A stretch of DNA of 64,000 nucleotides from Viola odorata. Lineage: Eukaryota; Streptophyta; Magnoliopsida; Malpighiales; Violaceae. Of this stretch, positions 350 to 32,141 are shown in pieces (positions within the stretch are counted from its first letter, which is position 1; every line of letters begins with the position of its first letter). The stretch is taken from assembly GCA_963691705.1 (NCBI GenBank), contig OY829539.1, positions 60,796,327 to 60,860,326 of the forward strand. The letters run 5' to 3'. Both the position numbers and the translations under genes were made by a program. The notes under the pieces were generated by a model that had not been told where the DNA came from, searched no databases, and saw only the letters and a program-made list of their open reading frames with translations.

Positions 350-1806
350 TGATTGACGTTATATTTCACTCGTTTCTACCACTTCAAAGTTCCTTGTTCG
401 TGGCAGAAACTCCCATTTTTCACGTCAATTTGGCTTCTTTTGAAGAATCTTGGGCAAGACCGGTTCTGGATGGATCTAATGCTGGAGCGAAGACTAGCAG
501 TCTTAACCGCTTGTCTTGGCTAAGACTGCGCGGTGGAAGCGTGCTGGGCATGGACTCATGGAAGCAGGATCACATATTGAGGACCAGCTGGCTGCTACAT
601 CCACTTGAAGACTTTTTTTGGATGTAATCCTATTTGAATAAAAACGCATTATTATTATCTCTTTAGTATTTAAAAACAATTGGGATCATTATCCCTACTT
701 TCTAGTTAATTTGAAGTAAGGAGTTTGGTAAGAGACGTGATGGGCGGGGACCCTAACCTTATTTAAGGTAAGGGAAGACTGTCAATTACGCATCTTCTTC
801 CATCTTCCTTTCTTCTATTTTGTAAACAACTACTGTGATTTTCCTTCAGAAATATCGCATCTTAATTATATTTCATGTTCTTCAATTATTCCCTTTATTT
901 CTTTAATTAATATGTTTAGTAGCTAAAGCACCTAATTCTTGGTAAGGGCCGAGTGAGCATGCTTGTAAATCGTGAGGCTGAGTTGTTCTGAATCATCCTC
1001 TCATTCGTATTCAGTTGAAGTTCCGTTTTAACAAACCGGTTCCCGTCTAGGCTAAGACTTGATCGATCTCAGCCAAGACGACGAATTTGCAACCAGTCAC
1101 TAAGGGGACGAGCGAAACCGAAGTGACGAAGTAGGTAGCTAACCTCGCGGGGGTTAGTGAACTTGAATTGATCTAGGCCTAACCAGATTGACGACCTAGG
1201 GCTCCGAGTTTGGAGTAGCTTGGCCTAGACTTTGTCTTTCCCTGCGCCATTGGGATAACGCATGTGCCTCAAGCCAGCAGCCAATTGGATAAACCCTTTA
1301 ACCAGCAAGGTGTCCACTAGCCAGGATCACTAGAAAGGGGGTACCCTCCTAGTGATTTGAATAGGAGGAAAGTAGGATTGGAAAGGGGTTCCTCCCAATC
1401 CATAGCAGAGTTATGAGAAAGAAGGAGAAAATCTAGAGTCGATGATCGATGAAACAAGCCTAGTGCTCACGAATTCGCCTTTGCCAGGAGTTTGCCTCAA
1501 GAAAGTTCCACCCAAATCTCAACCAGCAATCTTAGCTAAGATTCACTTCTGCCCAAGATTGCTTCCTTACTTTGTTTTAGCTTATTCTCTTTTTACGTTT
1601 TGTCTATCTTAATCATCAGGAACAAAAATACCCTCAACTCCAGTGACGAGGAAGTCGAGTCAAGTCTACAATACACCACCAAGATCTCTGCGGACGAACC
1701 TCTTATCGCAATCTACAAGTCCCTTGTGGACGAGTGATAAGTTGTATTCCTACCCCATTTTCTATATCTTCTTACAACTAAATTTGATGCCCTCGACACG
1801 CAATCA
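350..1806 (+). repeat. 5' LTR of Athila-1
   Basis: This 1457-bp repeat matches 11032-12486 almost base for base. It has TGATTG/CAATCA inverted ends. A TATA-like stretch (TTATTTAAGG near 759) is the best candidate promoter. Several copies of the palindromic word TCTTRGCYAAGA or near variants lie in it (514-525, 1047-1058, 1068-1079, 1530-1541). The 92-codon frame at 349-627 is present in both LTRs but shows no recognisable protein and is not called. Confidence 0.97.
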
Positions 1807-1811
1807 AATTT

Positions 1812-1829
1812 TGGCGCCGTTGCCGGGGA
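1812..1829 (+). promoter_or_regulatory. Primer binding site, tRNA-Asp type
   Basis: TGGCGCCGTTGCCGGGGA begins five bases after the 5' LTR. It is the complement of the CCA-bearing 3' end of plant tRNA-Asp, the primer typical of Athila elements. It marks the start of minus-strand DNA synthesis and fixes the element's orientation. Confidence 0.9.
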
Positions 1830-1882
1830 TCTTCTGACGGTGTATTTTATAGTTTTGTTATTTTTATTTTTGTCTTTCGCAG

Positions 1883-3328
1883 TTGATGACCAGGTCCTCA
1901 AAGGAAGAACTACTACCTTTGAATCCAGAACTTACAAGGACCGAAACCCAAATCAGAAAGAAATCTAAGAGGAAATTCGTTGGTGAATTTTTGGGAACTC
2001 AATCAGAAACTGATTCCAGCAACAGTCTAGGCCAAGATCAGGACCCAGCTGAGAATTTAATACCAAACATGGAAGAAAACCAAGAAGAACAGACGATGAG
2101 AGAACAAAATAGGGGGGCAAAACGAGTGACCTACTCCTGTATTAATCTACCCCCGATGGCTAATGATTGGTCTATCAAGACGAACATCATTGCCAACTTA
2201 ACCAAGTTTCATGGCCACTCAAATGAGAATCCATATAACCATTTGAGGAACCTTCACCTCCAATGCGATACCCTCAAGCTAGTGGGAGTAACAATCGAGA
2301 GAGCCAAACTGAAGGCATTTCTGTGGTCTCTCGAAGACTCAGCTAAGAATTGGTTCTATAGCTTACCCCATAACACAATAACAACATGGGGAGACATGTC
2401 CGCTGCCTTCCTAAATAAATATTGGAACGCGACTAAGGCAGGGGCAGCACGAAAAAGCTTAGTTTCCATTCAGCAGAGGGGAGGAGAAAGTTTGAGCGAG
2501 TATCATCAAAGGTTTAGAGACCTTGAAGACATTTGCCCTACCCATGGGGTAGCAGATCATCTCTTAATTCAATACTTCTATGATGGAATGTGTATAAAGG
2601 ATAGGGAAAGGCTAGACTCAGCCGCTGGAGGAGCACTTCAAGATCTTACACCAACAAGAGCAAAATTACTTCTCCAAACAATGGCTGACAACAGCCAAAA
2701 CAACACCTCATCCGAGAGAAATTCTACACCTTCTTCTTTGAATGCTATAAATATGGAGAACAAACTTGATAAAATTACTGACATCTTGATGAATCTCTCT
2801 ACAGGTACCCAATCTCAGGCACAAACTACAGTAGCTGCAGCCAATCCCATGCCCTCGGTTTGCGGGATTTACCAACAGCTAGATCATCCAACCCATAGTT
2901 ATTATGTGGTGGAACAGCCGGGAGATCCACCCCCAATGCCAGTAAATGCAGCATATGGCTACAATCAAGGACAATCTAATGGACAACCTAGATTCCCACA
3001 CGAGAGCAACCAATACTCATGGAGACAACATCCCAATCTAAGGTGGAGACAAGATACGCCTCATCCTAGCCAACCAAATCTCCAACAATACCAATCTCAG
3101 CCTAGCCAACCATCTCAACAACAATACCAACAGCAGCCACCACAATCGCCCATAAATTTCCAACACTTCGTACCCAGACCACCAGGAGCAAACCAATCCA
3201 ATGCCCCTCTCCCACTTCCTACACCTCAACCGCTTAAGATTACCGGAGTACCTATCGAGGACACTATGCAAAAATTCATGCAAGCGACTCAATCCAGCCT
3301 TGTTGAAATGCAAAAGCAAATAGGTTAG
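1883..3328 (+). CDS. gag: Athila-1 Gag (481 codons to an in-frame TAG)
   Basis: This is the capsid/nucleocapsid part of the polyprotein, which forms the cytoplasmic virus-like particle. Residues about 100-220 carry the retrotransposon gag fold (tryptophans in the AKNWF and TWGDM segments, then a SLSEYHQRF segment). The C-terminal half is rich in Gln, Pro and Asn, and I see no CCHC zinc knuckle. The frame starts at ATG 1886 (or the preceding ATG 1883), 54 bases after the primer site. It ends at TAG 3326-3328, but the same frame is open on both sides of that codon. The expected codon there is Gln, so TAG is probably a CAG-to-TAG mutation in a single gag-pol frame. The bases after it do not match the known plant CARYYA read-through context. 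Confidence 0.9.
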   Translation: MMTRSSKEELLPLNPELTRTETQIRKKSKRKFVGEFLGTQSETDSSNSLGQDQDPAENLIPNMEENQEEQTMREQNRGAKRVTYSCINLPPMANDWSIKTNIIANLTKFHGHSNENPYNHLRNLHLQCDTLKLVGVTIERAKLKAFLWSLEDSAKNWFYSLPHNTITTWGDMSAAFLNKYWNATKAGAARKSLVSIQQRGGESLSEYHQRFRDLEDICPTHGVADHLLIQYFYDGMCIKDRERLDSAAGGALQDLTPTRAKLLLQTMADNSQNNTSSERNSTPSSLNAINMENKLDKITDILMNLSTGTQSQAQTTVAAANPMPSVCGIYQQLDHPTHSYYVVEQPGDPPPMPVNAAYGYNQGQSNGQPRFPHESNQYSWRQHPNLRWRQDTPHPSQPNLQQYQSQPSQPSQQQYQQQPPQSPINFQHFVPRPPGANQSNAPLPLPTPQPLKITGVPIEDTMQKFMQATQSSLVEMQKQIG

Positions 3329-6292
3329 CTCACCCAACAGATCCAGCAAACGGGAACAAGTGGAAAATTACCTTCCACCACCGAGAATAACCCAAAGCAC
3401 AATGTAAGTGCCATCCATCTAAGGAGTGGAAGTGTTCTACCTGAACGAAAGGGCGCGAAATCGGATCAAGAGATTCACAACCAATCGTATGAAGACGAGG
3501 ATGTGGACGTAGATGAGGAAGTACAAGAAGAAACCCAAGCAGAAGTTCAGTCGAAACCAATCTTGGCCAAGACTGGAACTCAGAGTGAAGCCGAGCTTGA
3601 TATTCCAGTTCAAAAGGAACAGCCGATCTTAGCTAAGACTGAGGCCAAGGCTGATGAGCAGGTTATGAAACCTCTGGAGACAACAGATATTCCACCTCCC
3701 TATCCTCCCAAGTCCTCTAAACAGAAGAAATTAGACGAAGCTAAAGAGTTCATGAACATTTTTGGCAAAGTGGCCGTGAACATTCCCATGCTAGATTTAA
3801 TTTCTAAAGTACCTTCTTACGCAAGATTTTTGAAAGAACTCTGTACTAACAAAAGGAAACTTGCAGGTATTGAGAGAGTGAATCTTATGCAGAGTGTTTC
3901 TTCAGTACTTCAGAGTAAACTACCGGAGAAGTGTGGAGATCAAGGAACCTTCACCATCCCTTGCAAGATTGGGAACAAAATGGTGGAGAAAGCTCTTTGT
4001 GACTTAGGGGCTGGGATCAACGTGATGTCCTTAAGGGAATATGAAGTATTGCAAATAGGACCCATGAAGGAGACACAGGTGGTGATTCAACTGGCTGACC
4101 GAACGGTCATCCATCCTAAAGGTTTGGTAGAAGACGTTCTCGTCCAAGTCAATAACTTTATATACCCTGTGGACTTTTATATTGTTGAAATGGATGCTGA
4201 TTTACCTTCCTTTACCACTGATGTGCTCTTAGGTAGACCTTTTCTTAGGTCTGCTAGAGCAAAGATAGACGTTTATGAAGGTAGTATTATTTTGGAATTC
4301 TTTGGAAGCACGATTAAGTTCTACATGAAGGAGGGGTTGAATTATCATAATGAGACACATAGTGTTAGTTTTATTGATATCTTATACCCTATTGAGGAAG
4401 AAACTGCAGATTTAAATGCTACTGACCCACTTGATTTTATCTTAAGCAGAAGTATCTCAGCTAAGACGCTGGAGGAAATGGAAGACCGAGTAGGGAACCG
4501 AGAGGATCTTAGGGAGATCTTAACGGATCTTCATGAGACAGAACCAGTGAAGGAAACCACGCCTTGTCCATTGTTTAGCATGACTAACCCTGAGATGTTA
4601 CCATCTATTGTGCAGCCACCCGAGCTGGATCTTAAGGAGTTACCAAAACACCTTAAGTATGCCTATCTAGGCCAAGACAAAACCCTCCCGGTAATAATCT
4701 CAGCTAAGCTTTCTAGCGAAGAAGAGACAAGATTGACAAGCATTTTGAAGAAACATAAAGAGGCTATTGGATGGACCTTAGCAGACATCAAGGGCATATC
4801 CTCCACCATTTGTACCCACAAAATTCATGTGGAAGAGGATAAGAAAACTATTAGACAACCCCAAAGGAGGCTTAACCCTTCGATGATGGAGGTTGTCAAG
4901 AAAGAAATCATTAAATTACTTGATGCTGGAATTATATACCCAATCTCTGATAGTTCATGGGTTTCCCCTGTACAGGTTGTACCAAAAAAGACAGGTACCA
5001 CCGTGACCGAAGGTGAGGATGGGATAAAGAGAACGACAAGAATTCAGAATAGATGGAGAGTCTGCATAGACTACCGCAGACTTAACCAAGTCACGAGGAA
5101 AGATCACTTTCCATTACCATTCATCGACCAAATGGTGGAAAGATTGACTGGGAAGTCCCATTACTGTTTCTTAGACGGTTATTCAGGATTTCATCAAATC
5201 CCAGTGGCATTAGAAGACCAAGAGAAGACGACATTTACATGTCCCTTCAGAACTTTTGCATATAGGAGGATGTCATTCGGATTGTGCAATGCGCCGGCCA
5301 CCTTTCAAAGATGTATGGTTAGTATCTTTTCAGACTATGTGGAAAAGGGTATTGAAGTGTTTATGGATGATTTCACCGTCTATGGTGATGATTTTGATAA
5401 ATGCTTAACGACACTGAAACATATTTTAAAAAGGTGTATGGCTACTGATCTTGTTCTTAACTATGAAAAATGTCATTTCATGGTTGAACAAGGTATTGTC
5501 TTAGGTCATGTAGTTTCTAAGAAAGGTATAGAAGTTGACCAGGCTAAGATTGATGTTATCAAAACCTTGCCTTACCCCTCATGCGTGCGCGAGGTTAGGA
5601 GTTTTTTGGGCCATGCAGGGTTTTATCGCAGGTTCATCAAAGATTTCTCGAAGATAGCAGAACCAATGTGCAAACTATTGCAAAAAGAAGTGGACTTCGA
5701 TTTAGACAAGTCTTGCCAAGAAGCGTTCGACAAGGTCAAGGAGAAACTCATTTCATCCCCAATCATCCAAGCCCCAGATTGGAACCTACCATTCGAATTA
5801 ATGTGTGATGCTAGTAACTCAGCTGTTGGTGCGGTTCTAGGGCAGAGTAATGGTAGAGATCCACACGTAATCTACTACGCCTCAAAGATGCTTGACGATG
5901 CGCAAAAGAACTATACCACAACGGAGAAGGAATTGTTCGCAATAATCTTCGCTTTAGACAAATTCAGATCGTATTTGATGGGAACAAAAGTCATAGTTTT
6001 TTCTGACCATGCAGCCCTAAGGTATCTCCTGACAAAAGCCGAATCTAAGCCAAGACTGATCCGCTGGGTTTTATTTTTGCAGGAACATAATTTGGAGATT
6101 AAGGACAAAGCAGGAAAGAAGAACTTAGTTGCAGACCACCTCAGTAGATGTTTTGTCAAGGACGATTCAGAACCAATCAAGGATGATTTTCCAGACGAAC
6201 ATCTATTTGCCGTCAAGATAATCAGACCATGGTTTGCCGACCTAGTAAACTTCTTAGCCACGGGTAAACACCATGGAGACCTAACGGCTTAA
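3329..6292 (+). pseudogene. pol: Athila-1 protease, reverse transcriptase, RNase H
   Basis: Open in the gag phase from 3329; the first ATG is at 3503. The aspartic-protease centre appears as CDLGAGINV near 3999-4025. Reverse transcriptase follows, with YRRLNQVTRKDHFPLPF, LDGYSGFHQIP and the catalytic FMDD (FMDDFTVYGD, about 5361-5390). RNase H follows (ELMCDASNSAVGAVLGQ, about 5800). The frame stops at TAA 6290-6292 just before the integrase region and continues in the same phase beyond it. A Gln codon (CAA) is the likely ancestor. The N-terminal linker contains the peptide ILAKT twice because two copies of the dispersed palindrome lie in coding DNA. Confidence 0.9.
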
Positions 6293-7483
6293 GAAAAGGT
6301 TAAGATTAAGCATGACAGTAAGTTTTTCGTTTGGGATGATCCATATCTTTGGAAAATTGGATCTGATCAGTTGATTAGAAGATACATTCCTGAAACTGAA
6401 ATTCCATCGGTCTTAAGATTTTGTCATTCTTATGCATATGGTGGACATTTTGGAGCTAAGAGGACAGCCTTAAAAGTCCTAGAATCAGGATTTTATTGGC
6501 CCACCCTATTCCATGATAGTTATACATTTTGTAAGACATGTCCTGAGTGCCAAAAGATAGGAAACATAAGCGCTAGAAATCAAATGCCCATGAATGTTAT
6601 ATTAAATTGTGAAATTTTTGATCTATGGGGCATTGATTTCATAGGGCCATTTCCTATGTCAGATGGAAAACAATATATACTGCTTGTTGTGGATTATGTG
6701 TCTAAATGGATAGAAGCTAAGGTAACTAGGACCAATGATGCTAGAACTGTTGTTTCATTCTTAAAAACTAACATTTTGAACAGATTTGGCGTGCCTAGGG
6801 GGATCATTAGCGACCGAGGCACACATTTTTGCAATAGTATTATTGTTTCCCTTTTCAGGAAGTATGGAGTAACCCACAAAGTCTCCACTGCATACCACCC
6901 TCAGTCAAATGGCCAAGCGGAGGTATCAAACAGAGAAGTCAAATCGATCTTAGCTAAGACTGTTGGCTTAGATCGACGAGATTGGAGCCAAAGGTTAGAT
7001 GATGCACTATGGGCGTATAGGACAGGCTACAAATCCCCCACAGGAATGACTCCTTACAAACTGGTGTACGAAAAAGCTTGTCATCTACTAGTAGGTATGC
7101 AACACAGAGCTTATTGGGCAATTCGGAAATGCAATCTAAGGTACGACCAAGCAGGTGAGGAAAGGAAACTCCAAATCCACGAAATTGAAGAGTTGAGGAA
7201 TCAAGCATATGATAACCAGCTTTTAGCCAAGATCAGGATGAAAACATATCACGACAGTAAGATTGTTGAGAAGAATCTCCAACTTGGGGGAAAAGTCCTT
7301 CTGTACAATTCACGATTTAAGCTCTTCCCAAGTAAGCTCAAAACCAAATGGGAAGGTCCATATGTTATCACTAATATCTACCCTCATGGTGCAGTGGATA
7401 TTAAGAATGAAAAGACAGAGATTGAGTTCAAGGTCAATGGACAGCGACTAAAACCATTCCTAGAAGGATTTCCTACGTTTTAG
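6293..7483 (+). pseudogene. pol: Athila-1 integrase
   Basis: This is the last domain of the polyprotein, in the same phase as RT-RNase H but separated by TAA 6290. A zinc-binding region is visible ([11 protein letters not shown], then CKTCPECQK), followed by the catalytic core: Asp in [10 protein letters not shown], Asp in [11 protein letters not shown], Glu in [14 protein letters not shown]. The C-terminal DNA-binding part ends [15 protein letters not shown]. The integrase inserts the cDNA into the genome. No other stop is seen until TAG 7481-7483, the normal end of pol. Confidence 0.9.
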
Positions 7484-8056
7484 GAAAATCAGGCGATCGA
7501 AGCCCCACCTGAGATTCATTAAAAGAACAGCGAAGTCATGCCTAGGACTATAACTAGGGCGCTACATGGGAGGCAACCCATGCATTTTAATTTTAGTTAT
7601 CTTAAATAAACTTATCATTCAAATTTCGCCAGTGCAGTCAATTAATTTTCCTTTGCTAAATTTTTCAGGGAGTAGATGAAAAATAATTTTCAGGAGTGAT
7701 TTTGAGGATTTAAGTGTGGTGAGGAGAATATTTGATCTTAGCCACATTTTATTCAGCCTTGGGCTGATTGACACGCGGAGATAGAGGCAGGAAAAGCAAG
7801 GAAGCGTGTTCTAGGGAGGAGAAAAAAAAGGAAGGGATAACGGTCACATTTTTTGTAATTATTAATCATGATTTGGAAATTAATTTTCAAATCTTAATTA
7901 ATAATTATCTACCAAGTTTCAGTCTCCTTACCACCCACAAACACAAAATCACTAAAATTTTGCCCTCTCTCTCTTATCTTCCACGATCACCTCAGCTAAA
8001 ATCTCTCCACTCTTCCACTCTCCTACTTCAAACCCACGATTATTCAGCATTAAAAC
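7484..8056 (+). other. pol to env-like spacer with a polypurine-tract-like copy
   Basis: This region is non-coding. It contains TTTAAGTGTGGTGAGG (about 7709-7724), the same core as the true polypurine tract at 11014-11031. The 155-codon frame that overlaps it (7768-8235) is in another phase from the env-like gene and has no recognisable features. Confidence 0.6.
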
Positions 8057-9913
8057 ATAGGAAAATCAAAGCGATCATCCGCCAAGAAAGCAAAATCCAC
8101 CCCAATCAGGCAAGAATCTCCTACCACTCCGCAATCTCCTTCTTTAACGAATCCAGAGGAGGATTTGCCACAAAACCTCAACGAAGCGCTAGATATCGCA
8201 AGGACAATCATGTCCATGGAAGCAGCCACCTCTGATTCTTCGAAGCAACTTCTCTCTACTCCTACTTCAATCCTCGAGCCCAAGACCCAGTCTAGGGTTA
8301 GCAAGACGGCTAGCTCCGAGGTTCAAGAGATTTCAGATTCCGAGCCTAAGTGTGAAGAAGGCTCGGCCAAATCAAAGAAATCTGGAAAGAGAAAGGCAGG
8401 CCTAAGTGTTGAATCTGCCCCAGCCAAGAGGACACGATCTACGGCTGCCAAGGGCAAGAATAAAGTAGATGAGGGTAATCTTGGCTCAGACTCTGATGCT
8501 GATGCGGTTGCAGTCTTGGTCAAGCCTGCGGCCAAGACTGCCAAGGTAATCACCCTTCCACCCTTGAACTCTTTGAAAGGCTGTTTGAGGCCTAATACTC
8601 CTGATTTTAGGGCTAAGTTGACTGAAAAGCATGCCTGTGAGATAACTCAGTTTGTTGTCCTTGATTTTTCCTTTCTTGATGAGTTGGGGATAGGAAATAG
8701 AATTAGGCGGTTTATTTCTAATCTTGGGTGGGATTGCTTCTTCTATCTATGCATGCCTGCTTATGCTGAATTATGTTTAGAGTTTCATTCCTCTTTCTGG
8801 TTAGATCAGGATAGATTGTATGCTAATGGTAGGGCTTTTCCTGATCTGAGTGTTGCTGATGTTGTGCACTTCCGTTTGCTTGATAAGTGGTGTCACTTTT
8901 CCATTGATGATTTTAATCTATTGCTTGGCTTTGCGACTGAGGATGGCCTCAAGTCTGTGCGGCCAAACTAAATAAAAAATTCTAAGGCTTACCAGATCCG
9001 AGATCCTACTTTAAGGATTCTCCAAAGGATCCTTTCAATCAATCTCTCGGCCAAGACCACAGTCTCGGGTAATATTTCAAAACTTGAGACATTTTTGCTT
9101 TGGTGCATGCTGCATGAGAAAAGAGTTAATCTTGGCTATTGGATTGCTAGACAGATAAAAGCATGTGATTCTCTTCCTAGAATGATTTTAGGAACTCTGA
9201 TTTCCCATTTGACTGTTACTGCTAGGGGTATAGATCTATCTGCTTTGAATTTGTTTAAATCCTGTGTCATTAAGATCATGGATCTTAGGGCTTTTGACCA
9301 AATGGGCCATGTCCACGAGGAAAAAGGCTATCTCTGTTTTAATACAGGATTCACCCCAGTAGCAGATCATCTCTATGGGAAGAGGATCAACGGGAACTTC
9401 AAGATTAAGCCAATTCAGATTGACGGTGCAGCAGAGTAGCCCAATCTTGGCCAAGATGACCAGATGCCTGAGCATACCAATAGCCTCGGTGTTGATCCTG
9501 ACCACCCTGGACTTCCAGCATGGGCCAACAAATTCCTTGAGCTTGTGCAGATCCAGCTCGATGCCTTCACAACAAATCAGAAGTTGTTCTACGACTTCCA
9601 AGACTCGTCTCGCAAACAGATGCAGCAGATTGTGGATCAACAACAATCTCTGTTTGCAAGTGTTGAGTTGGCACAGAAGGAGCGGCTGGATAAGTTCATG
9701 AAGCAGCAGGATGCCAAGTATAAACACATCCAAGCGCACTTAGAAGGGTCTTTCACCTACATCAGAGCCATAGATAGAGTTGTTGCGCACATTCGTAACA
9801 AGGTGAATGACCACTTTAGCTCCACTAGCGACTCCAGCGATGCCTCTGATGAAGAAGAAGCACCAGCACCTTCTGTGCAAGATCCGAAGCCTCCACCTTC
9901 CACATCTCAGTGA
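8057..9913 (+). pseudogene. Athila-1 ATHILA/env-like accessory protein, broken
   Basis: One phase is open from about 8054 to 9913 apart from TAA 8969-8971 and TAG 9437-9439. Three parts are visible. First is a basic, Ser/Lys-rich N-terminus with a KKSGKRKAG nuclear-signal-like stretch. Next is the plant ATHILA domain (LGIGNRIRRFISNLGW, then FRLLDKWCHFSIDDFNLLLGF) continuing to LHEKRVNLGYWIA. Last is a Gln-rich coiled-coil-like C-terminus with an acidic tail. At the expected start stands ATA (8057-8059) rather than ATG; the first in-frame ATG is 8210. The homologous frame lies in Athila-2 at 61999-58404 on the other strand. I see no convincing signal peptide or membrane segment, so an envelope role is unsupported. 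A DNA- or chromatin-binding role is only a guess. Confidence 0.8.
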
Positions 9914-11013
9914 TTACCCCCAGGTCGTGTCTTTCTTTCTTTCTTTTTCAAATTTTTGTGTCTTTTTACCTTTTTTTCTTCTCTCATTTACACATTGAGG
10001 ACAATGTGTTCTCTAAGTGTGGTGAGGGTGTTTTTAGGATGTCTTTCTGTATATACATGTTTCTGAAGTGTTTTTGGTGTGATTTCTTTGATCGCATGAA
10101 ATTTTTCATTTTTTTTATGAATCTAGGCTAAGTTAGTTGGCCTAGATCATCTGAAATAGAGTCCGATGCATGTTTTCTCTTTGTCAATATGTGTGTTTTT
10201 TAGGATTGTGTGTTCTCTGTTTTGTTTGTGTGTCGGCAAATTTCCTGGACCATGCCTAAGGCCTGTTTTCTCAAGTATCTTAGCCTTGACCTTTAGCATC
10301 CTTCACCTTGTGACCCCATAACTTATGAACACAACGTGATCAGCCTAGAGACATCCTTATTGTACATGATCATAGGGTCTAGCATTGCGTAACTGACTTG
10401 ACACATAGGCAAACTTCCACCAAAAATACCTAATACCCCTTAAGGAAAATTGCTAGTGGACAATGGAGTCTAACGCCTTGTAATTATGCTGAATAGCTCT
10501 AATATAGAGAACTACTGCTATGCCTAGTAAATTGCAGCTCTAGAAAAAAATAGATGAAAAGAAACTAATAAAGAGCAGAGAAAAAAAAAATATACATAAG
10601 CAAATGTCTTGATGTTTCTGCCTCACTAAACATTAACAATCAAGAAACTTTTAGCAATTTTGGGCATAGTAAAATAAAACTTCAGGCAAGGTAATTAGAT
10701 GATGATGTTGAGCAATCGAATTAAATGGGGAAAATCCAAGTAGGTGGATGTTTTGCTTTGTTGAGTCTGTTATGGAATGCGAAGATGTTATGATCATGTG
10801 GAATTCGGATGTCTAGGGTGCTGATTAAGCTGTATTCATAAGGGTTGGGACCCATTGAGAAGTATGCTAACTGTCATAGGCCAAAGATATTAAAGGAAAT
10901 GGGCTAAGGGTAGTCTGTCCAGGAAATTTTGCCACAGTCTATTTTGAGTCTGTTTTGAGTCTTCCCCTTTTTTGTCTTAGTTAAGAGTCTAGTATGCTTG
11001 GGGGCAAGCATTG
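9914..11013 (+). other. Athila-1 3' untranslated region with hairpins
   Basis: No gene is recognised. At 9991-10008 there is a perfect stem (CACATTG and CAATGTG around an AGGA loop), followed by a polypurine-like TAAGTGTGGTGAGGG (about 10013-10027). At 10994-11011 a second perfect stem (ATGCTTG and CAAGCAT around GGGG) lies just before the true polypurine tract. A T-rich stretch lies at 9931-9985. Confidence 0.7.
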
Positions 11014-11031
11014 TTTAAGTGTGGTGAGGTT
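11014..11031 (+). promoter_or_regulatory. Polypurine tract of Athila-1
   Basis: TTTAAGTGTGGTGAGGTT abuts the 3' LTR, where the primer for plus-strand DNA synthesis must lie. The core recurs near 7710 and 10013. Confidence 0.85.
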
Positions 11032-12486
11032 TGATTGACGTTATATTTCACTCGTTTCTACCACTTCAAAGTTCCTTGTTCGTGGCAGAAACTCCCCTTT
11101 TTCACGTCAATTTGGCTTCTTTTGAAGAATCTTGGGCAAGACCGGTTCTGGATGGATCTAGTGCTGGAGCGAAGACTGGCAGTCTTAACCGCTTGTCTTG
11201 GCTAAGACTGCGCGGTGGAAGCGTGCTGGGCATGGACTCATGGAAGCGGGATCACATATTGAGGACCAGCTGGCTGCTACATCCATTTGAAGACTTTTTT
11301 TGGATGTAATCCTATTTGAATAAAAACGCATTATTATTATCTCTTTAGTATTTAAAAACAATTGGGATCCTTATCCCTACTTTCTAGTTAATTTGAAGTA
11401 AGGAGTTTGGTAAGAGACGTGATGGGCGGGGACCCTAACCTTATTTAAGGTAAGGGAAGGCTGTCAATTACGCATCTTCTTCCATCTTCCTTTCTTCTGT
11501 TTTGTAAACAACTACTGTGATTTTCCTTCAGAAATATCGCATCTTAATTATATTTCATGTTCTTCAATTATTCCCTTTATTTCTTTAATTAATATGTTTA
11601 GTAGCTAAAGCACCTAATTCTTGGTAAGGGTCGAGTGAGCATGCTTGTAAATCGTGAGGCTGAGTTGTTCTGAATCATCCTCTCATTCGTATTCAGTTGA
11701 AGTTCCGTTTTAACAAACCGGTTCCCATCTAGGCTAAGACTTGATCGATCTCAGCCAAGACGACGAATTTACAACCAGTCACTAAGGGGACGAGCGAAAC
11801 CGAAGTGACGAAGTAGGTAGCTAACCTCGCGGGGGTTAGTGAACTTGAATTGATCTAGGCCTAACCAGATTGACGACCTAGGGCTCCGAGTTTGGAGTAG
11901 CTTGGCCTAGACTTTGTCTTTCCCTGCGCCATTGGGATAACGCATGTGCCTCAAGCCAGCAGCCAATTGGATAAACCCTTTAACCAGCAAGGTGTCCACT
12001 GGCCAGGATCACTAGAAAGGGGGTACCCTCCTAGTGATTTGAATAGGAGGAAAGTAGGATTGGGAAGGGGTTCCTCCCAATCCATAGCAGAGTTATGAGA
12101 AAGAAGGAGAAAATCTAGAGTCGATGATCGATGAAACAAGCCTAGTGCTCACGAATTCGCCCTTGCTAGGAGTTTGCCTCAAGAAAGTTCCACCCAAATC
12201 TCAACCAGCAATCTTAGCTAAGATTCACTTCTGCCCAAGATTGCTTCCTTACTTTGTTTTAGCTTATTCTCTTTTTACGTTGTCTATCTTAATCATCAGG
12301 AACAAAAATACCCTCAACTCCAGTGACGAGGAAGTCGAGTCAAGACTACAATACACCACCAAGATCTCTGCGGATGAACCTCTTATCGCAATCTACAAGT
12401 CCCTTGTGGATGAGTGATAAGTTGTATTCCTACCCCATTTTCTATATCTTTTTACAACTAAATTTGATGCCCTCGACACACAATCA
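11032..12486 (+). repeat. 3' LTR of Athila-1
   Basis: 1455 bp, the partner of 350-1806. It starts TGATTG after the polypurine tract and ends CAATCA, followed at once by the target duplication TTATG (12487-12491). Confidence 0.97.
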
Positions 12487-14449: not shown

Positions 14450-16842
14450 CCAAGCCTATTCCGCGTTAACAAGCCTATTTGGGGGTGTAAATTGTCGAAG
14501 CTTTTTCTCTCCATCCGCCTCCTCGGAAAATTCCACCATCAAGACACTACCGTTGCCAGGTGCCTTTTATAAGCGGAACCCTTGACCTTACAAAAACATG
14601 ACGAATAGGTGTTCCCCTAGGGTCCCGATCAACATGCTTAAATCAGCCCTGTTCTGTGGCATATGGACATTCACGCCCCGCCATGCTCCAAACTACAGAC
14701 TCGAATTCGATCATGGTCAAATCATTCATGGGTCGAATTTGATCTTGTCACCAGCATCTCTCCTCCCAAGCAGTTGATCATGATCGAACGAGTATTGATC
14801 CTTTCAGGAGTGGGTGGCTTCTCAGGGATGACTATTACCCATTGATCAAATGACCTTCTCTCCATCATCACTTTGTGGGAATGAATAAAAACTTCCCATC
14901 GTATCTCAGTCAAGTTCACCAGCCTAGTGGTTCCAAGGGGTTGTCATCTCTTCAGCCATCATGATTCTAAGAAGAGATGTCTAGCAAAATTCCAGCGACG
15001 ACCAAACGAGCAGAAGCCTCAAGATAACATGTTGATCTCGTCATGATCATCACTAAAGAAGGCACCACCAAGTTGAAACTTCAAAGCCAAACAAGATCGT
15101 GGGTATCAAAAATCATCATGAGTAGAATCAGAAGGCCTTGGGTCATTAACACTGCATCACATTTTCAATCCTCTATAATTGGGGGCAAGCAAATTGGATG
15201 AGGGAGCCTTCGGAGAAGCCATCTCGTTTGTCCACCTCGCACCTTGATCATGGCATGTACTAAATGGGTATCATTCAAAGTATGTCATTATGGCATTGAT
15301 CCACACAAAGGCCCGACTCAAGTGCTGAATCTTCAAAAGAGCATTCTCCGAAATGTGGTGCATGGACTTCATTTTCTAGATCCACCACAACAGTCGCGAA
15401 CCCTCATCAAAGGAGTTTCCCATTCCCTTCGAGAGGTGAAGCAATGTCTTTCCCCGAGGATGACATTGAAGTTAGGCCTGAACCAGTGCATTCCCAAAAG
15501 CAACCCACTCAATTAGATCGGCTATGAAAAGATCGGTCACACTAAGTCCGGAACACCAAAATGCATGTCCGCAAGGTGGTCGACTAAAGCCATCAACGTT
15601 CTTCTGCTTGTCTTATCCAGGACTGCGAGTGCTACTCTTGTCCGGATATGAAATTCAGCACCAACATCCTAGTGGGTAGTAGCGCCCGAGGGGATCCTTC
15701 ATTCTCAGTCCAGCACCAACATCCCAGTGGGCAGCAGCGCCTGAGTGGATTCTTCATCCTAGGGGGAAACGGTGCCCGAATGGATTTTTCTTTCCGCATC
15801 AACCTTCCTGCGGCCAGCAACGCCCAAATAGAACTCTCATTTTTGTTCCCTATCAGAATCTCAATGGTCGGTAACATCTAAACATAATTCCGCAAAGCAT
15901 GAATGGGTCTCGACATCCGATCAGAATCAGGACGTGCTTGCCAATAAGCCTCACTAGAAAAGGGAGAGTTTAAAACCTATTGATTACATTGTCCATTTTC
16001 CTAAATCGCCCTTCAGTCCTACCCATTGTTTCTCCCTTATTTTTGCAGGAACTCGAATCGTGTCATGGTTACTTGCATAGTGCTCAGCGAGACTGAGGAA
16101 TTCTCCTCTTATCAACTCTTGAATGACCATCTTGTGTACCTTCACAGCCCTGCCGCGCGTATTAGGGAGTCCATTATGCATTCTACGCTGGGGGCAACCT
16201 TTTGGAAATGCCTCACTCTCATCCATTTGTGGCGGCTCAGTTCCCCCTATTTTTATCCTTTGCGGCGGCCACACCCTGTTGTCCGCTTTACATCAGCATC
16301 CGAACTTTACGGGGTCTTTGCCCTGGTTTCAATCTACATTCCTACAAGAACATCGCAGTGGGCATCAACATCAGAGTGAGGTCTACACTTACTTCTCCGC
16401 GGTAACATCCTTGCTCCGACCTCGCGGCCCCGCCGCACACATCCAGAGAAGTGCATTCATCTATCTACCTCTTTAATTTTTGTGCAATCATTCATTCCCG
16501 CATTGGGGGCATTTCTTTTTATTTATTCATAAATTTTCGTGAGTGGTCATACCCTCACATTTTTTGTAAAAAAATTTCTAAAACTGTTAAGATTTGTTAC
16601 AAAATGTGCATAAAATTCTTTGAATAAAATCCACATTACCTTTAAAATTTTCAAACCTTCCTTAAATTGAGCATGTTCAACATGTTACTGCATCATGGAT
16701 AACTTGTGCATCCATTTGAAATTGTATGACATGCATGATCTCGCCTATTAGCTCTTATATTTGTGGCATGTTTAGACGTAAGCAGTCACAAATACATCCC
16801 TGTGAGCATTTTGGGCCTTCACGCCTTATTTCCTTTATGAGT
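14450..16842 (+). mobile_element. Left part of the outer Tat/Ogre-like element, non-coding
   Basis: No conserved frame is seen. Words of the form TGGGGGCAA (near 15180, 16188, 16503) and a degenerate three-unit repeat of ~55-80 bp (about 15656-15850, units starting CAGCACCAACATCC or similar) resemble the untranslated 3' region continuing at 32680. The two parts rejoin across the nested element's duplication TGAGT (16838-16842 and 32675-32679). Its left limit next to the MITE-like repeat is uncertain. Confidence 0.5.
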
Positions 16843-17368
16843 TGATAAGATCCGAGACCTCTTCTGAGCGGAACGGCAGCCACCGGTGGTCGTACGGGAG
16901 GCGGTCGACGTCGGAGGTACCTGCAAAGCGCCGGAGGGGGACTCCGGCGTAGACACTCCGATGCTTAAGTCAGTTCAAGTTTTCAAAGTAGTAGAGTTTC
17001 TCCAAAATGATCTCGATCCTCCTTTCTGCTTGGTAAGGTGGGGGTATTTATAGACCGAAATTAGCGATACCTGACAGCGATAGGGGTAGACACCGTTTGA
17101 AGATATCGCTTCGAGCGATATCAGGTACGTCATCGCGGGCGATAATCGAGTAAGGCCTATCCGAGCGATATCTTCTCCAGTCTCCTAGGATGGGATGACA
17201 CCGTGCGTGTAAAGACGCATGAGATCCCCCCCCGCTGAAGTCGACCATCCTAGGAAACTTCCGCTGGCTTAGGCGATAGGTTGGCATTTCAGGGAAGCGT
17301 ATAGAAACTTGTCCAGGATAGATGCCGTAGCCCCAATGTTGCCGTCAGGAGCATTCCAATTGTTATCA
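16843..17368 (-). repeat. 3' LTR of the nested Tat element
   Basis: Starts TGATAAG and ends TTATCA on the plus strand, so it has inverted ends. A TATA box reads on the minus strand (CTATAAATAC, about 17044-17053). Fifty bp upstream of it lies a perfect dyad: GATATCGCT and AGCGATATC around TCG (17102-17122). Five more GCGATA words surround it. It contains a run of 8 C near 17226. Confidence 0.95.
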
Positions 17369-17385
17369 TAAGCCCAACTGAAAAC
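17369..17385 (-). promoter_or_regulatory. Position of the nested Tat polypurine tract
   Basis: The sequence just inside the 3' LTR reads GTTTTCAGTTGGGCTTA on the minus strand, only moderately purine-rich. Nearly the same words recur at about 18667-18681, so the tract may have been duplicated. Called mainly from position. Confidence 0.45.
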
Positions 17386-18074
17386 TAGCCCGAGTGTTCA
17401 CCAAGGGCTATCCACGTCTGATATCTTAAAATAGGGATCTGCTCGGTCATGAGGCGATATTGATCTTCTTGGCCTCTCAATAGGGCTTATGAAGTCTCCT
17501 CTTCGTTCAAGTCATGGAAGGACCATTGTTGGGTCACCTGCGGTGTCGTCACGGCTACTCAACCAGGCCGTGCCCTAGGCTGGCATATATTCGGGGCTAT
17601 CGTCCTTTCGAGTGTACTGCAAAGACACAGAGGAGATAGATACTTATACAGAGGTTAGCGAACCTTATACTTACAGAGGTCAGAGGTCACACGAGCCCCA
17701 ATTTATTCTTTACGCCCGAGAGAGTAGCGGTATCAACGCGGCTTTACGCCATCAGCTACCTTATGGTTATCGCGGCTTCATACCACTAGACGCCTGTGAT
17801 GCCAATGCGGTTTTACGCATCTAGGGCTACCGGTGACATCAACGCGGCCTTACACTGTGGATACCGGTAACCTTATGGTTTTAGCGTCAGGGCTACCAGT
17901 GATATCGTGTCTTTCGGCGTTTTTCCAGACTCTGCCTCGTACTCCTTCCAGTATCTATATCGCGACCGTTACCCCTTCCTTCCGTTCTAGGCTTATCAAT
18001 CCTTGAGGATATCGGGGCGGCTCGTCTTTTGAGGATCTCAATTTCTTTTCCCAAGGCCTCCCTTCAGTGGAGCC

Positions 18075-18080
18075 TATAAA
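18075..18080 (+). promoter_or_regulatory. TATA box of antisense gene 1
   Basis: TATAAA 51 bp before the ATG at 18131, a spacing that allows a short leader. A poly(A) signal-like AATAAATAAAG lies after the frame at about 18582. Confidence 0.6.
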
Positions 18081-18130
18081 TCGGTGAGTTTTCCCAACCC
18101 ACGTTCTCCTCATCTCTATCAGTCAGCATC

Positions 18131-18508
18131 ATGGATCATTTGACTAAGAATTTTCTTCTCTCCAAGGGTCATTCACTCAGGAACCTCAATGACGGTGACG
18201 TCGGTTTCCTGGAGAACATGCTGGTCAAGACTTCTGAGGATAGTCTGGAGCTGCAGGGGATGCTGACTCCGCTCCATTCCCGGCTGGGAGTCGTCTCTCT
18301 GGAGGACTTCAGTCCTTTGGAGAGCGTTTCAAAGCTGTCTGCCTCCATTGCTCGGATTCAAGTGGTGATCGCCATGCTGCAGCAGCGTAAGGACATGTTG
18401 GGGTGCTGCCTGAAGGGGATGAGAGCCACTTCCCACGATCTAGTTCTGGTTATGGATTCCCTGAGGGATCTTCCTGAAGTGCCCGAGGACACTGGCTCTG
18501 ACGCCTGA
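18131..18508 (+). CDS. Antisense gene 1 of the nested Tat element, 125 aa
   Basis: An intact small frame on the strand opposite to gag-pol. I do not recognise the protein. It is Leu- and Met-rich with helical stretches (residues about 60-115 look like paired helices or a coiled coil) and an acidic C-terminus ending TGSDA. It has its own TATAAA (18075) and AATAAA (about 18582), which support a real transcription unit. It is the gene nearest the 3' LTR. No zinc finger, catalytic motif or membrane segment is visible. Confidence 0.6.
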   Translation: MDHLTKNFLLSKGHSLRNLNDGDVGFLENMLVKTSEDSLELQGMLTPLHSRLGVVSLEDFSPLESVSKLSASIARIQVVIAMLQQRKDMLGCCLKGMRATSHDLVLVMDSLRDLPEVPEDTGSDA

Positions 18509-18984
18509 TAGCGGTGGCTCCCTTTGGGCCTTTTCTCTTTTTCCCTTGTCTTGTAAATGTATCTTCCGGCCACTAGGCCATAATAAATAAAGTGTTTTCA
18601 TCATTCCCTCTCGCAACTGTTCTTCTTTTTTACTGCGCTCTTTGTCGTTTTCCAAGGAATATTCTTAGCCCAACTGAAAACAGTCTTGCTATTGGGCGGT
18701 TTTTCTGCTGATCGTTCTGCCTTAACTCCGCGCCGTCCTCATTATAACAACTGATCGGCAGATATTACGATTATTCTTGATTTGCACGAGATTTCAACAG
18801 GCGTGACTGCAAATCCACATTTATACTTCAGACTGTACACGTGCCAATCTTAACGAGTTGGGTTGGATGATCGAAGAGTCTCTTTTCTTCTTTTCCCCGG
18901 CTATTTAATGAGGCTTTTCCTCCTTCATTCTTATCCATTTCTTTCTCATTCATTTTTCTTCGTTACAGATCCTCTGCGAGTCTC

Positions 18985-19440
18985 ATGGCTGATTCTTATT
19001 TGCTAGGTACGGCTTCGAGGGATTCACCGCCAACTCCCCCGACTACCCCTGACACAGATAATCCTCCCCCATCGCCTCCTTGGAGACTGGTTGTCCGCCG
19101 GCGAGGTCGCAAGAGGCGGAGGAAGGAAGTTGAACAACGAAGGAAGGAGGCTGCCAAGGCCTCTAAGTCATTTTTCGACTCTCTGGCTTCTCTGGCTAGG
19201 GAGGAGAAAAAGTCGTTTTCTCCTTTGAGTGATTCGCCTCCGAGGGTTCCTTCTGCTGGTTCAGCCGTTGAGGCAGTATCGCCAGGCGTTAAGGAGGAAA
19301 CAACCGGGTCGACTACTGCCGCTAGAAAGAGGGTCGGTGAGCCTTCTCCTCCTGCCGATGTGGATTCACTATTCTGGGGTGGCGATGACGAAGAGGACGT
19401 AGTCTATTGCTACGACGTTACTTGGTCCGTCAGCGACTAA
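18985..19440 (+). CDS. Antisense gene 2 of the nested Tat element, 151 aa basic/acidic protein
   Basis: Intact frame with a Pro/Ser/Thr-rich N-terminus and a strongly basic block at residues about 35-55 (RRRGRKRRRKEVEQRRKEA) that looks like a nuclear localisation signal. A Ser/Pro-rich linker and a very acidic C-terminus (GGDDEEDVVYCYD) follow. A TATA-like TATTTAA lies near 18902, 80 bp upstream, and AATAAATG near 19483 follows. The layout (basic nuclear signal plus acidic tail) would suit a nuclear regulatory or chromatin protein, but I recognise no family, so function is unknown. Confidence 0.6.
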   Translation: MADSYLLGTASRDSPPTPPTTPDTDNPPPSPPWRLVVRRRGRKRRRKEVEQRRKEAAKASKSFFDSLASLAREEKKSFSPLSDSPPRVPSAGSAVEAVSPGVKEETTGSTTAARKRVGEPSPPADVDSLFWGGDDEEDVVYCYDVTWSVSD

Positions 19441-19710
19441 GGGGCATAGCCCGTCTTTTGTAGATGCCGTATGGCGTTTCCTATAATAAATGATGTTTTT
19501 TATTTCCCTTTCGTCTCTCATCGCTTACTTGTCTTTTTCTTTGTGGGCATTCCGGGCTATCGCGGAAGCGTTTCTTTCGCTGCGAGTAACTGCCTTCGAC
19601 TCTTAATCAGTAACTGTCTTCTTTCAGAAGGCATAGATGACTATCCACGTGTCTCCTTCGGTTCTGCACGTGTTTTGTTTTTACAGGCTGTCTCTTCTTA
19701 GGTTTTCTCC

Positions 19711-19719
19711 TTTATAAGG
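19711..19719 (+). promoter_or_regulatory. TATA box upstream of antisense gene A
   Basis: TTTATAAGG about 190 bp before the ATG at 19907, leaving a long leader. Confidence 0.5.
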
Positions 19720-19906
19720 AAATCATCTCTCCTTTACTGTTTTTGCTAATACTTCTGAGTTTCTGCACATTTTCTCTCTCTTCTGCGTTTCCTTTTCTTT
19801 GAGTGGTTTTACTGCAACCGCTCACTGGTGCCGGCAACCGGCCTACTGGCTTTTCGTTCCAGGTATTTACTCCTTCTATCGTCATAGATTTACTTTCCTG
19901 CTCCTC

Positions 19907-22140: not shown

Positions 22141-22578
22141 TTGATCCATTAAAGGACCTTACTATTTGTTTTTCATGTCTTGTAATAATGCCATATCGCA
22201 CGGTGATATCAGTACTTTGCCGTTTGGGCGATATCTTGTTTATTTCGCTTTCTCGCGTTGTCTTGAAGGCTACCTTTTAATTAACGTCGTCTTTCGTCAT
22301 TTCCTTTCTTGTAATATCGCCTTTGTTTTTCAGAAAGTCGCATCTGCTTTTCAGAGCATTTATTGCTCGCGACCCTTCCGTCAGTGCACGGGAAAAGTCA
22401 TGATGGTCTAGGCACACGTGTCCATTTCTTCTGCCTCTTCACCTTTGTTTAGAACTTTTGACAAAATCGAAACGTTTGTTGCGTTTCTCTAGAGTTGTAC
22501 TCATTGCTTGAGTCTTATCCCTCATTCCGCTCCAACACAACGACTGTAGCATTTGCCGTTTCCTTTTAATTACTAGGG

Positions 22579-22586
22579 TTATAAAC
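22579..22586 (+). promoter_or_regulatory. TATA box upstream of antisense gene B
   Basis: TTATAAAC 160-170 bp before the ATG at 22750, in pyrimidine-rich leader sequence. Confidence 0.5.
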
Positions 22587-22749
22587 CGTCTTTATTTCTT
22601 CCCTTTTCTTTTTCACTCCCCTTTCTGATATTATTTCCCCGCCGTCTTGTTCTTCTTACCTCTACTCAGGCTTTCGAAGTTCTTTCCTCTTAAAGGTACT
22701 TTCTTCCCCTTTCCTTCATCTTCTCGATTTCTATTTCTTTGCTTCTGCC

Positions 22750-25085: not shown

Positions 25086-26184
25086 CATGTCATGGCACTT
25101 TGCCGTTCCTTCTAGCGATAAGCATCGCCTAGTTTTTGTCTTTTATGCCTACAGCATAATCATTTTGAACACTGGATCTTTGTAAATCCTTGAGATGCCT
25201 TTAATATATCTAAGCAATCTCTTATCACTGTTCTTCCTTTGTATTTGTCTCCTCGCGAGACTTCTTTTATCACTGGGGTTGACTTATCCTCATAGTGTGC
25301 TTACTTTGTCGAACAAACCCTTAGTATTTCCACCAAAATGACTAAGGTCTATATCGGGTAGGCCTTTCGATAAGCTTATCGGTATCATGACCACCACTCC
25401 TTCCGCTGTTCGGGAGTATTCTGCACATTTCTAATTGTAGATCATCAGTAACAAAATGAGTTTTGAGAGAGAGTGATTTACCCGTAGGAGCCTTTCCGCT
25501 GCCGTCACAGGGCTTTATCACGGAACCCGTTTCGAATCGCGTTTCCCCTCAGTTCTATACTTCGCCAGGGATTACTCATCCGGTTACTAACTGGAATTAC
25601 GCGATTCTCCACGTTTCCCTTATCTCTCGATCGGCCTCAAAAGTGCCTCATCTCATGAGCAGTCGGATCAAGACTCTCACAAGGCTAGGAATTTTCACTT
25701 TTAGGCGTTGACCTCTTGTTTAGAACCGTGTCCTTTCTTAATGGTTTAGCTATACTAGCCCGACCGTTAAGATAGGATTCTTGTTTCTAAACAGAGTTTC
25801 TATTTCTTTGGGACGTGTCTTGTCTTGATGTACCGTCTCCACGAGAACGGCCAGCACAAGAAAAGAACTTTTCACTCCCAAAGATTCCGGGCGGTGCCCT
25901 CACTTAGTGAGCCATCTGATCAAGATCGGTCATCACAAGGATAGGACTTTTCACCCCCGGGAGCGTCAAGGATTTTTCGATCCGACGCTAATTAAGGATA
26001 CACTGGGTCGTGCCCTCACTTAGTGGGCCATCTGATCAAGACCGACCATCACAAGGATAGGACTTTTCACTCCCAGGGTATCCCCCTTTTTATCTGCACA
26101 AAAGCAACCACAAACCCACGAAAACTCTCATATCGAGCGTTAGCCACAGTTAGGGTTGTCATAATCCAAATAGTGCAGATAAAA
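25086..26184. repeat. Convergent 3' region between antisense gene B and pol, with short repeats
   Basis: Gene B and gag-pol end facing each other here. A ~65-bp unit starting near GTGCCCTCACTTAGTG and running through ATCACAAGGATAGGACTTTTC occurs twice (about 25893-25956 and 26011-26072), with decayed relatives near 25650-25690 and 25850-25880. No frame is recognised. Confidence 0.6.
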
Positions 26185-32100: not shown

Positions 32101-32107
32101 CGCTCAC
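26185..32107 (-). pseudogene. gag-pol: gag-pol polyprotein of the nested Tat element, multiply interrupted
   Basis: A single minus-strand phase spans the region, with a probable ATG at 32056. In order: an Arg/Ser-rich gag; protease (VDNGSAVNLF, near 29940-29910); RT with PLPRIDQLVD, LDANSGYHQIP and the catalytic YVDD (AYVDDILVKS, about 28820); a first RNase H (EEVVSAVLV); a second archaeal-type RNase H (HVDGA, NAAEYEALLAGL, CGDSKLIID, NAEADYLAKLA) typical of Tat elements; integrase with an HHCC finger (TCPKCQEF) and Asp, Asp, Glu (GIDILGPFP, SDNGTQFTS, TNGQAEVTN). Stops stand at 31349, 31097, 30485, 29774, 29267 (TGA), 28787, 28085 (TAG) and 27914 (TAA). A one-base frameshift lies near 26590, after which the integrase tail reads in another phase to 26185. 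Confidence 0.93.
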
Positions 32108-32139: not shown

Positions 32140-32141
32140 TT

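Follow-up and report, generated by a model that had tools for sequence, protein, structure and literature searches.

Family-specific DNA motifs scattered through Athila and Tat/Retand-like retrotransposons of Viola odorata as candidate sites for element-encoded proteins

The transposon Spm/En encodes TnpA, a protein that binds a repeated 12-bp motif and counteracts methylation. In the VANDAL elements, which are Mu-like DNA transposons, the element-encoded protein VANC21 binds a family-specific 9-base motif and induces methylation loss over the element, while a related VANC uses other motifs and a high motif density matters (PMC5735166). Among plant long terminal repeat (LTR) retrotransposons, the TRP28 protein of Retand is predicted to be DNA-binding (PMC11963269), and an extra open reading frame (ORF) of sunflower Athila elements carries a Transposase_32 domain with a predicted nuclear signal, its function being unknown (PMC11728184). 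Here we describe a 64,000-nucleotide stretch of the Viola odorata genome (assembly GCA_963691705.1, contig OY829539.1, C3:60796327-60860326), hereafter the window, in which an Athila-type LTR retrotransposon, Athila-1, carries a 12-bp palindrome scattered through its LTRs and coding DNA. Other families of the same 699-Mb, 26-contig assembly carry other short motifs, a pattern suggestive of families that tag their own copies for proteins which they probably encode themselves.

Athila-1 combines a Ty3/gypsy gag-pol with a sense ORF of the ATHILA ORF-1/Transposase_32 type between integrase and the 3′ LTR, which places it in the Athila lineage, several of the domain scores lying below or barely at the Pfam cut-offs. 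Its parts are as follows.

350..12486, plus strand: Athila-1, Athila-type LTR retrotransposon (blastn self-comparison)
350-1806 and 11032-12486: LTRs of Athila-1, 98.5% identical (blastn self-comparison)
1883..3328, plus strand: gag ORF (Pfam Retrotrans_gag, 8e-18)
3503..6292, plus strand: pol ORF with reverse transcriptase and RNase H (Pfam RVT_1, RT_RNaseH)
6371..7483, plus strand: integrase ORF (Pfam rve, Integrase_H2C2)
8054..9913, plus strand: broken env-like frame (pieces 8054-8971, 8972-9439 and 9440-9913), the putative motif binder

The middle piece of the env-like frame (8972-9439) matches Transposase_32 at 24.6 bits, below the cut-off of 45. Near position 8958, about 80 bp are missing relative to the compared copies and families, and longer open env-like frames occur elsewhere in the genome.

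The exact palindrome, TCTTRGCYAAGA, occurs eight times in the window, always inside Athila-1, against 0.07 expected (mean of 100 dinucleotide shuffles), in line with an earlier reading of the sequence alone (hereafter the sequence-only reading), which had put the chance expectation far below one. Its degenerate form, TCTNRGCYNAGA, was found at 20 places against 0.32 expected; 18 of these lie in 350-12486 and the other two at 39809 and 62685. When up to one mismatch was allowed and one LTR counted, Athila-1 held 17 sites in 10.7 kb and the other 51.5 kb held one, the excess being smaller at exactly two mismatches (10 in Athila-1 and 10 in the rest of the window). A count of words with no motif supplied returned GCCAAGA (17 vs 1.75 expected) and GCTAAGA (15 vs 1.55) as the top two 7-mers of Athila-1, the top z score being 8.3 against a null maximum of 6.0 in 40 order-2 Markov simulations; in these word scans low-complexity words were removed from the observed lists and kept in the null. 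A second enriched word in Athila-1 (350-11031) is CTTCCAC/GTGGAAG, with 9 occurrences against 1.1 expected. Exact or variant sites are present in the LTRs, gag, pol, integrase and the env-like frame.

514..525, 5′ LTR (3′ LTR copy 11196-11207): exact TCTTGGCTAAGA; identical in LTR copies L009, L010 and L019, with A at position 5 in L007
1046..1057, 5′ LTR (3′ copy 11728-11739): variant TCTAGGCTAAGA; identical in 4 of 5 LTR copies
1067..1078, 5′ LTR (3′ copy 11749-11760): variant TCTCAGCCAAGA; changed in 4 of 5 LTR copies
1530..1541, 5′ LTR (3′ copy 12212-12223): exact TCTTAGCTAAGA; kept in 5 of 6 LTR copies
2026..2037, gag: variant TCTAGGCCAAGA; phase 2 (LGQD)
3561..3572, start of the pol ORF: exact TCTTGGCCAAGA; phase 1 (ILAKT); changed in copy L009
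3627..3638, pol ORF: exact TCTTAGCTAAGA; phase 1 (ILAKT); changed in copy L009
4455..4466, pol ORF: variant TCTCAGCTAAGA; phase 1 (ISAKT)
4666..4677, pol ORF: variant TCTAGGCCAAGA; phase 2 (LGQD); a second family, Athila-2, has a site at the same place
6044..6055, RNase H: variant TCTAAGCCAAGA; phase 0 (ESKPRL)
6948..6959, integrase: exact TCTTAGCTAAGA (ILAKT); TCTTGGCCAAGA at the same place in Athila-2
8479..8490, env-like frame: variant TCTTGGCTCAGA
9045..9056, env-like frame: variant TCTCGGCCAAGA (LSAKT)
9445..9456, env-like frame: exact TCTTGGCCAAGA (LGQD); changed in copies L010 and L023

The six positions that the sequence-only reading gave for exact copies were right, and the 3′ LTR copies to which it alluded start at 11196 and 12212. 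Its list of variants needed amendment, since 1068 and 9046 were each off by one (1067 and 9045) and further sites lie at 1046, 6044, 8479, 11728 and 11749. It had also supposed that the variants mostly keep the dyad, as a site bound by a dimer should. This is partly so: among the 14 degenerate sites of the one-LTR Athila-1 sequence, eight are asymmetric at positions 4/9 (seven at position 4 and one at position 9) and five at the centre. A dimer-bound site would fit the dyad of Athila-1 and Athila-2.

That selection acts at the DNA level in Athila-1 is well supported. Coding frames hold 10 of the 14 sites, and in synonymous codon shuffles, which hold protein and codon usage constant, neither the four exact coding sites (mean 0.17) nor the ten degenerate ones (mean 0.35) were reached in any of 2000 shuffles, so that shuffled and codon-shuffled controls alike do not match the observed density. 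The ten coding sites use all three phases (ILAKT, ISAKT or LSAKT; LGQD or LGSD; SKPR); therefore no single peptide is favoured, and a peptide-level cause was rejected on this ground. The sequence-only reading had singled out ILAKT and ISAKT, which do recur without being the sole peptides, and its view that the pressure seems to be on DNA or RNA and not on protein agrees, as regards DNA, with the codon shuffles, the use of three phases and the replacement of conserved residues. The last point comes from homologs in other plants (the best 120 of 4974 proteins found, none sharing more than 70% identity with the query). At the integrase site, where Athila-1 reads ILAKT, the homologs have E (ILEKT) in 64, Q (ILQKT) in 3 and A in none of the 67 rows with residues listed, out of 74 counted, one of which is entirely gap. 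At the RNase H site Athila-1 has ESKPRL against EAKPRL in 97 of the 120 homologs, with S in 4 of the rows listed, and at site 4666 it has LGQD, the homologs having LG followed by E or D in the 87 rows listed out of 120. The peptides LAKT, SAKT, LGQ[DE] or LSQ[DE] appear in 7 of the 120 homologs, with one occurrence each; tallying recurrent 4-residue words across the homologs was uninformative, and the remaining coding sites fall where homologs vary or align poorly. Because the homologs are at most 70% identical, we infer rather than demonstrate the ancestral state, and the palindrome appears to have been written even over a well-conserved integrase residue.

Across the assembly, the exact Athila-1 palindrome was found at 8435 places and its reversed pattern at 215. 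CG is depleted by plant methylation; because the reversed pattern contains CG and its count is thereby biased low, a control palindrome with two letters swapped was also counted and was found at 197 places. Twenty stretches (L numbers), picked for holding or adjoining listed sites, contain 44 exact sites, and for 40 of these Athila-homologous sequence either includes the site or is no more than 1.5 kb away. The remaining four are one in L020, one in L016 and two in L013 (4537 and 8561, both TCTTGGCTAAGA), the latter in a duplicated segment without Athila similarity. No exact palindrome was present in five random 5-kb stretches of contig C1; apart from these and the window, loci were selected by the motif or by adjoining known copies or the window.

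In a check that the sequence-only reading had proposed, the sites of aligned Athila-1 copies are identical oftener than other 12-mers in nearly every piece, on small numbers; in this and the comparisons of copies below, "kept" in places meant still matching the degenerate pattern, so the advantage of sites is there partly built in. L009 and L010 form a single Athila-1 copy interrupted by a nested element. In L009, 8 of 11 aligned sites are identical, against 36.5% for other 12-mers, three are broken, and substitutions amount to 6.1% within sites and 8.9% outside; in one L023 piece substitutions are slightly higher within sites (8.3% vs 7.4%). The nested element of this region, C1:2512001-2547000 (L009, L021, L022, L010), is a Tat-1 copy that shares about 97% identity with the window's Tat-1, described below.

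Athila-2, whose pol and integrase DNA is about 72% identical to that of the window, mostly carries TCTWGGCCWAGA, which was found at 16748 places genome-wide against 144 for its reversal (a count biased low, as the reversal contains CG). The Athila-2 integrase site occupies the same position as that of Athila-1, its two central letters being altered (AGCT to GGCC), and one site in the Athila-2 stretch L014 aligns with Athila-1 site 1530..1541. Other Athila-2 sites are private, one of them lying inside an insertion (L002). In three comparisons of Athila-1 with Athila-2, aligned sites match in both in 2/3, 2/4 and 3/5 cases, with 1.4-2.6% of other 12-mers identical; between Athila-2 stretches, sites are kept in 10/10, 4/10 and 1/5 cases against 58%, 16% and 8% of other 12-mers.

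The window holds two further elements with motifs of their own, one of the Tat/Retand type and one Athila-like.

16842..32675, minus strand: Tat-1, Tat/Retand-like second element; LTRs 16842-17369 and 32141-32675, 97.8% identical
19718..20704, plus strand: ORF antisense to Tat-1, Transposase_28 (Pfam 1.6e-10); proposed candidate binder of RGCGATA
22585..23598, plus strand: second Transposase_28 ORF antisense to Tat-1 (Pfam 2.2e-7)
55001..63437, minus strand: Athila-3, part of an Athila-like third element, boundaries approximate; TTCRRGACC, 15 sites in 8.4 kb
58407..59966, minus strand: Athila-3 env-like ORF, 520 amino acids (Pfam ATHILA 2.8e-4; 20.3 bits, cut-off 20.2)

Tat-1 belongs, with Tat-2, to the Tat/Retand lineage, both having a long region from pol to the 3′ LTR with an antisense Transposase_28 ORF. 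In the 15.3 kb at 17370-32675, RGCGATA occurs 29 times with featureless flanks, 14 of these inside ORFs, and the top word has a z score of 11.3 against a null maximum of 5.6; synonymous shuffles reached the RGCGATA count in 0/1000 for both the gag-pol and the antisense ORFs. A palindrome tried for Tat-1, GGCGATATCGCC, was dropped, as it has three places at up to two mismatches and none exact, the real word being the non-palindromic RGCGATA. Sense sites number 15 and antisense sites 14, a balance that points towards double-stranded DNA. The same numbers bear on the idea that the motifs act in RNA, where the genomic transcript would be dimerised, packaged or targeted by small RNAs through them. 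Two RNAs could pair by way of a self-complementary word, and presumably transcribed sequence holds most of the sites, but a non-palindromic word in about equal orientations is at odds with this, and we regard a role in RNA as very improbable indeed.

Tat-2 (L033, L034, L008 and L023) shares 67-75% DNA identity with Tat-1 over aligned gag-pol pieces. L033 and L034, 18 kb in all, contain CGTTAGC 19 times and RGCGATA 4 times, with top z scores of 7.2 and 8.8 against null maxima of 6.6 and 7.2 (100 simulations each), and L008 and L023 together have 8 CGTTAGC in 11 kb, where the word does not rise above the null. Sites turn over between the two families: Tat-1 sites are kept in Tat-2 at 1/7, 0/4 and 2/6 aligned places, and Tat-2 sites in Tat-1 at 0/4 and 0/1. 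It could be held that no binder exists and that mutational bias, compositional drift or local duplication produced motifs that spread with the families. Some site pairs are close, one Athila-2 site lies within the L002 insertion, and Tat-2 sites are without special conservation, all of which would suit such an origin; against it stand the featureless flanks of Tat-1 sites, synonymous shuffles that fall short, order-2 Markov nulls that are exceeded, and replacements of conserved residues that neutral drift does not explain. We judge this origin to be very improbable.

Athila-3 has a single copy of the Athila-1 palindrome in its 8.4 kb, so that the density does not extend to this diverged Athila element, a comparison with other Athila families that the sequence-only reading had suggested. 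In its env-like ORF, three TTCRRGACC sites were reached in 1/1000 synonymous shuffles; the same ORF matches Transposase_32 at 9.1e-4, under the cut-off. The neighbouring 8 kb outside the window (L032) showed no gag-pol of Athila-3 by similarity to Athila-1 proteins. Within the window, 12487-16841, 37001-43000 and 43001-54000 gave top z scores of 5.7, 5.8 and 5.3 against null maxima of 6.0, 5.3 and 5.4; four of the random stretches were at or near the null, and the fifth, L029, is a satellite array. Stretch L003 (C1:1366001-1376000) is enriched in TTCCGAA/AATTCCG (z 7.0 vs null maximum 6.1), possibly another family's word.

When the five families were tabulated against one another, four different motifs emerged in one genome, each enriched in its own family (the palindrome in both Athila-1 and Athila-2) and rare elsewhere except for GCGTTA in Tat-1 and, mildly, GCYAAGA in Athila-3. 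The comparison covers one genome, five families and two lineages, labelled by Pfam domains and pairwise identity without a tree; L029 was left out of the random-DNA row, and the Athila-2 row is L002 and L014 alone, as whole 10-kb stretches including some flanking DNA. Gypsy in flies gathers Su(Hw) sites, and by this model host transcription or chromatin factors would bind the motifs, the element gathering sites for activation or insulation. Palindromic sites, several of them in the LTR, suit a host dimeric factor, and the palindromic motifs repeated in Sirevirus LTRs have been read as possible host-factor sites (PMC2829016). Four motifs across five families in one nucleus speak against it, as do the two Tat families, which differ in motif despite 88% identical integrase pieces, and the 10 of 14 Athila-1 sites in coding frames, which is unusual for promoter code. 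Because the families' motifs differ, which the sequence-only reading had not seen, a single host factor for all of them is weakened and was demoted; binding by host factors is in our estimate unlikely, at perhaps one chance in four.

The explanation that we favour, and that we hold to have about an even chance of being correct, is that the motifs are scattered sites for family-specific binders, likely the products of the extra ORFs, with an anti-silencing function like that of VANC. The palindrome would be the recognition site of a sequence-specific DNA-binding protein, and the element would have been selected to carry many such sites in LTRs and coding DNA alike. Since the binder should differ between families, the element's own product is the natural candidate: for Athila most likely its own env-like (Transposase_32/ATHILA ORF-1) protein acting as a dimer, and for the Tat/Retand-like elements most likely the antisense Transposase_28 protein. 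A dimer would explain the Athila dyad, and a protein reading both orientations would explain the strand balance in Tat-1. By binding family-specifically, such a protein would allow copies of the element to be told from other DNA, the most plausible use being relief from chromatin silencing, which VANC provides to VANDAL transposons. From the sequence we infer the binding of the motif, the identity of the binder as an extra-ORF product, dimerisation in Athila and opposition to silencing.

The overlapping integrase pieces of Tat-1 and Tat-2 are 87.6% identical over 161 amino acids, whereas their Transposase_28 ORFs are 55.3% and 44.1% identical, so that, as with VANC, the motif differs and the extra ORFs diverge fast (44-55%). 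Between Athila-1 and Athila-2 the env-like ORFs are about 45-54% identical and integrase 70-81%, gag being nearly as diverged (mostly 51-64%). Transposase_32 was matched by all six Athila env-like members tested and ATHILA ORF-1 by three, some of them weakly. Protein searches with env-like sequences found nothing (one of them over candidates limited to 7992), PDB sequences searched with the aligned env-like proteins yielded nothing better than a weak match at E 0.42, and viral contigs scanned with the integrase gave no match. Sunflower Athila elements also have an antisense ORF, their second extra one, for which a transmembrane helix is predicted (PMC11728184).

An element-encoded binder could also serve self-targeted integration, the element's own transcription or copy-number control. 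The sequence evidence for this is the same as for anti-silencing, and the Tat-1 nested in an Athila-1 copy on C1 makes targeting imaginable; a single nested case is, however, no pattern, and element-wide scatter that includes coding DNA suits chromatin-wide action over a promoter switch. We consider such another role improbable.

Several results weigh against the anti-silencing explanation. The env-like frame of Athila-1 in the window is broken, and a structure model was uninformative, with a predicted local distance difference test score (pLDDT) of 38.5. At E up to 10, the six env-like members matched 10 families, which did not include DUF1985 or DUF287, the domains that VANC carries. The motifs of VANC21 are mainly non-coding, often as tandem repeats and in one orientation (PMC5735166). 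In Athila-2 coding DNA the half-site alone was reached in 44/1000 shuffles, which is not extreme, and Athila-3 shows a mild excess of the half-site GCYAAGA, at 0.83/kb. Two stretches yielded no word above the null: L016, a further Athila relative (top z 6.1 vs null maximum 6.6), and L028, which has an env-like match (5.3 vs 7.5). CGTTAGC is not the top word in L008, and in L023 its 5.8 is under the null maximum of 6.9; between Tat-2 copies, sites are no better kept than other 7-mers (1/3, 4/6 and 3/6 vs 45-51%). Tat-1 (17370-32675) has a raised count, 16 sites, of GCGTTA as well, which belongs to the Tat-2 word and may be left over from an older motif or serve as an additional site. The comparison set, finally, was without an intact Copia or other element free of an extra ORF.

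Compared with the described systems, the likeness to VANC and VANDAL lies in short family-enriched motifs that differ between related families and are paired with a variable element protein (PMC5735166). VANDAL elements are DNA transposons and those described here LTR retrotransposons; the motifs here also stand in coding DNA (10/14 in Athila-1 and 14/29 in Tat-1) and are palindromic or in both orientations; the proteins carry Transposase_32 or Transposase_28; and binding and demethylation, shown for VANC (PMC5735166), are proposed here. We do not assign these elements to the VANC family, since neither DUF1985/DUF287 (for which the Transposase_28 ORFs likewise gave no match) nor tandem repeats of the motif in non-coding DNA turned up when sought. 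Sirevirus elements likewise repeat short dyad-symmetric motifs with variants between elements, but they are Copia, and their motifs lie upstream of the LTR TATA box, some 5′ of env, mostly with a CGG-CCG core, a scatter throughout gag-pol not being described in the available portion of the report (PMC2829016); Athila-1 is gypsy-type by RVT_1 and RNase H and has motifs throughout. Tat-1 and Tat-2 resemble Retand in their antisense Transposase_28 ORFs between integrase and the 3′ LTR, the TRP28 report mentioning tandem-repeat arrays and, in its available portion, no scattered motif (PMC11963269). Sunflower Athila elements share the Transposase_32 domain and the 3′ extra ORF, with no motif mentioned in the portion available (PMC11728184). 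The sites of Athila-1 are scattered through coding DNA, whereas those of Spm/En, a DNA transposon, are subterminal.

Tandem-repeat arrays adjoin Tat-1 at 34226-36875 of the window. Elsewhere in it, a 310-bp inverted repeat, 98.7% identical, lies at 43542-43851 and 44528-44836, 40001-42000 is strongly AT-rich (18% G+C), and the minus strand at 52891-54159 has an open frame that encodes a protein kinase domain (8.6e-49). L016 has an open env-like frame of 739 amino acids and a nested Copia piece.

How plant retrotransposons use their env-like and other extra ORFs has long been asked, and a 2026 sunflower paper, which raises element-encoded factors as a possibility for Athila, leaves still to be investigated whether Athila and Tork encode such proteins and whether the epigenetic state of the elements is modulated by them (PMC12844716). 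In the open-licence PMC literature, as represented by titles and the beginnings of abstracts, we found no earlier description of family-specific motifs that are scattered over LTR retrotransposons in coding and non-coding DNA alike. With candidate proteins paired with candidate sites, the question can be reduced to simple binding assays. A broader proposal, to which we give somewhat less than an even chance, is that the Athila env-like and the Tat/Retand Transposase_28 lineages each run their own self-recognition, a fast-evolving nuclear binder and a scattered motif, superimposed even on conserved codons, together freeing copies from silencing; plant "envelope-like" genes of this kind would then be anti-silencing factors instead of envelopes, convergent with VANC. 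If the anti-silencing explanation holds, sequence-specific anti-silencing would extend from Mu-like DNA transposons to LTR retrotransposons, with a pairing of motif and protein that changes quickly between close relatives.

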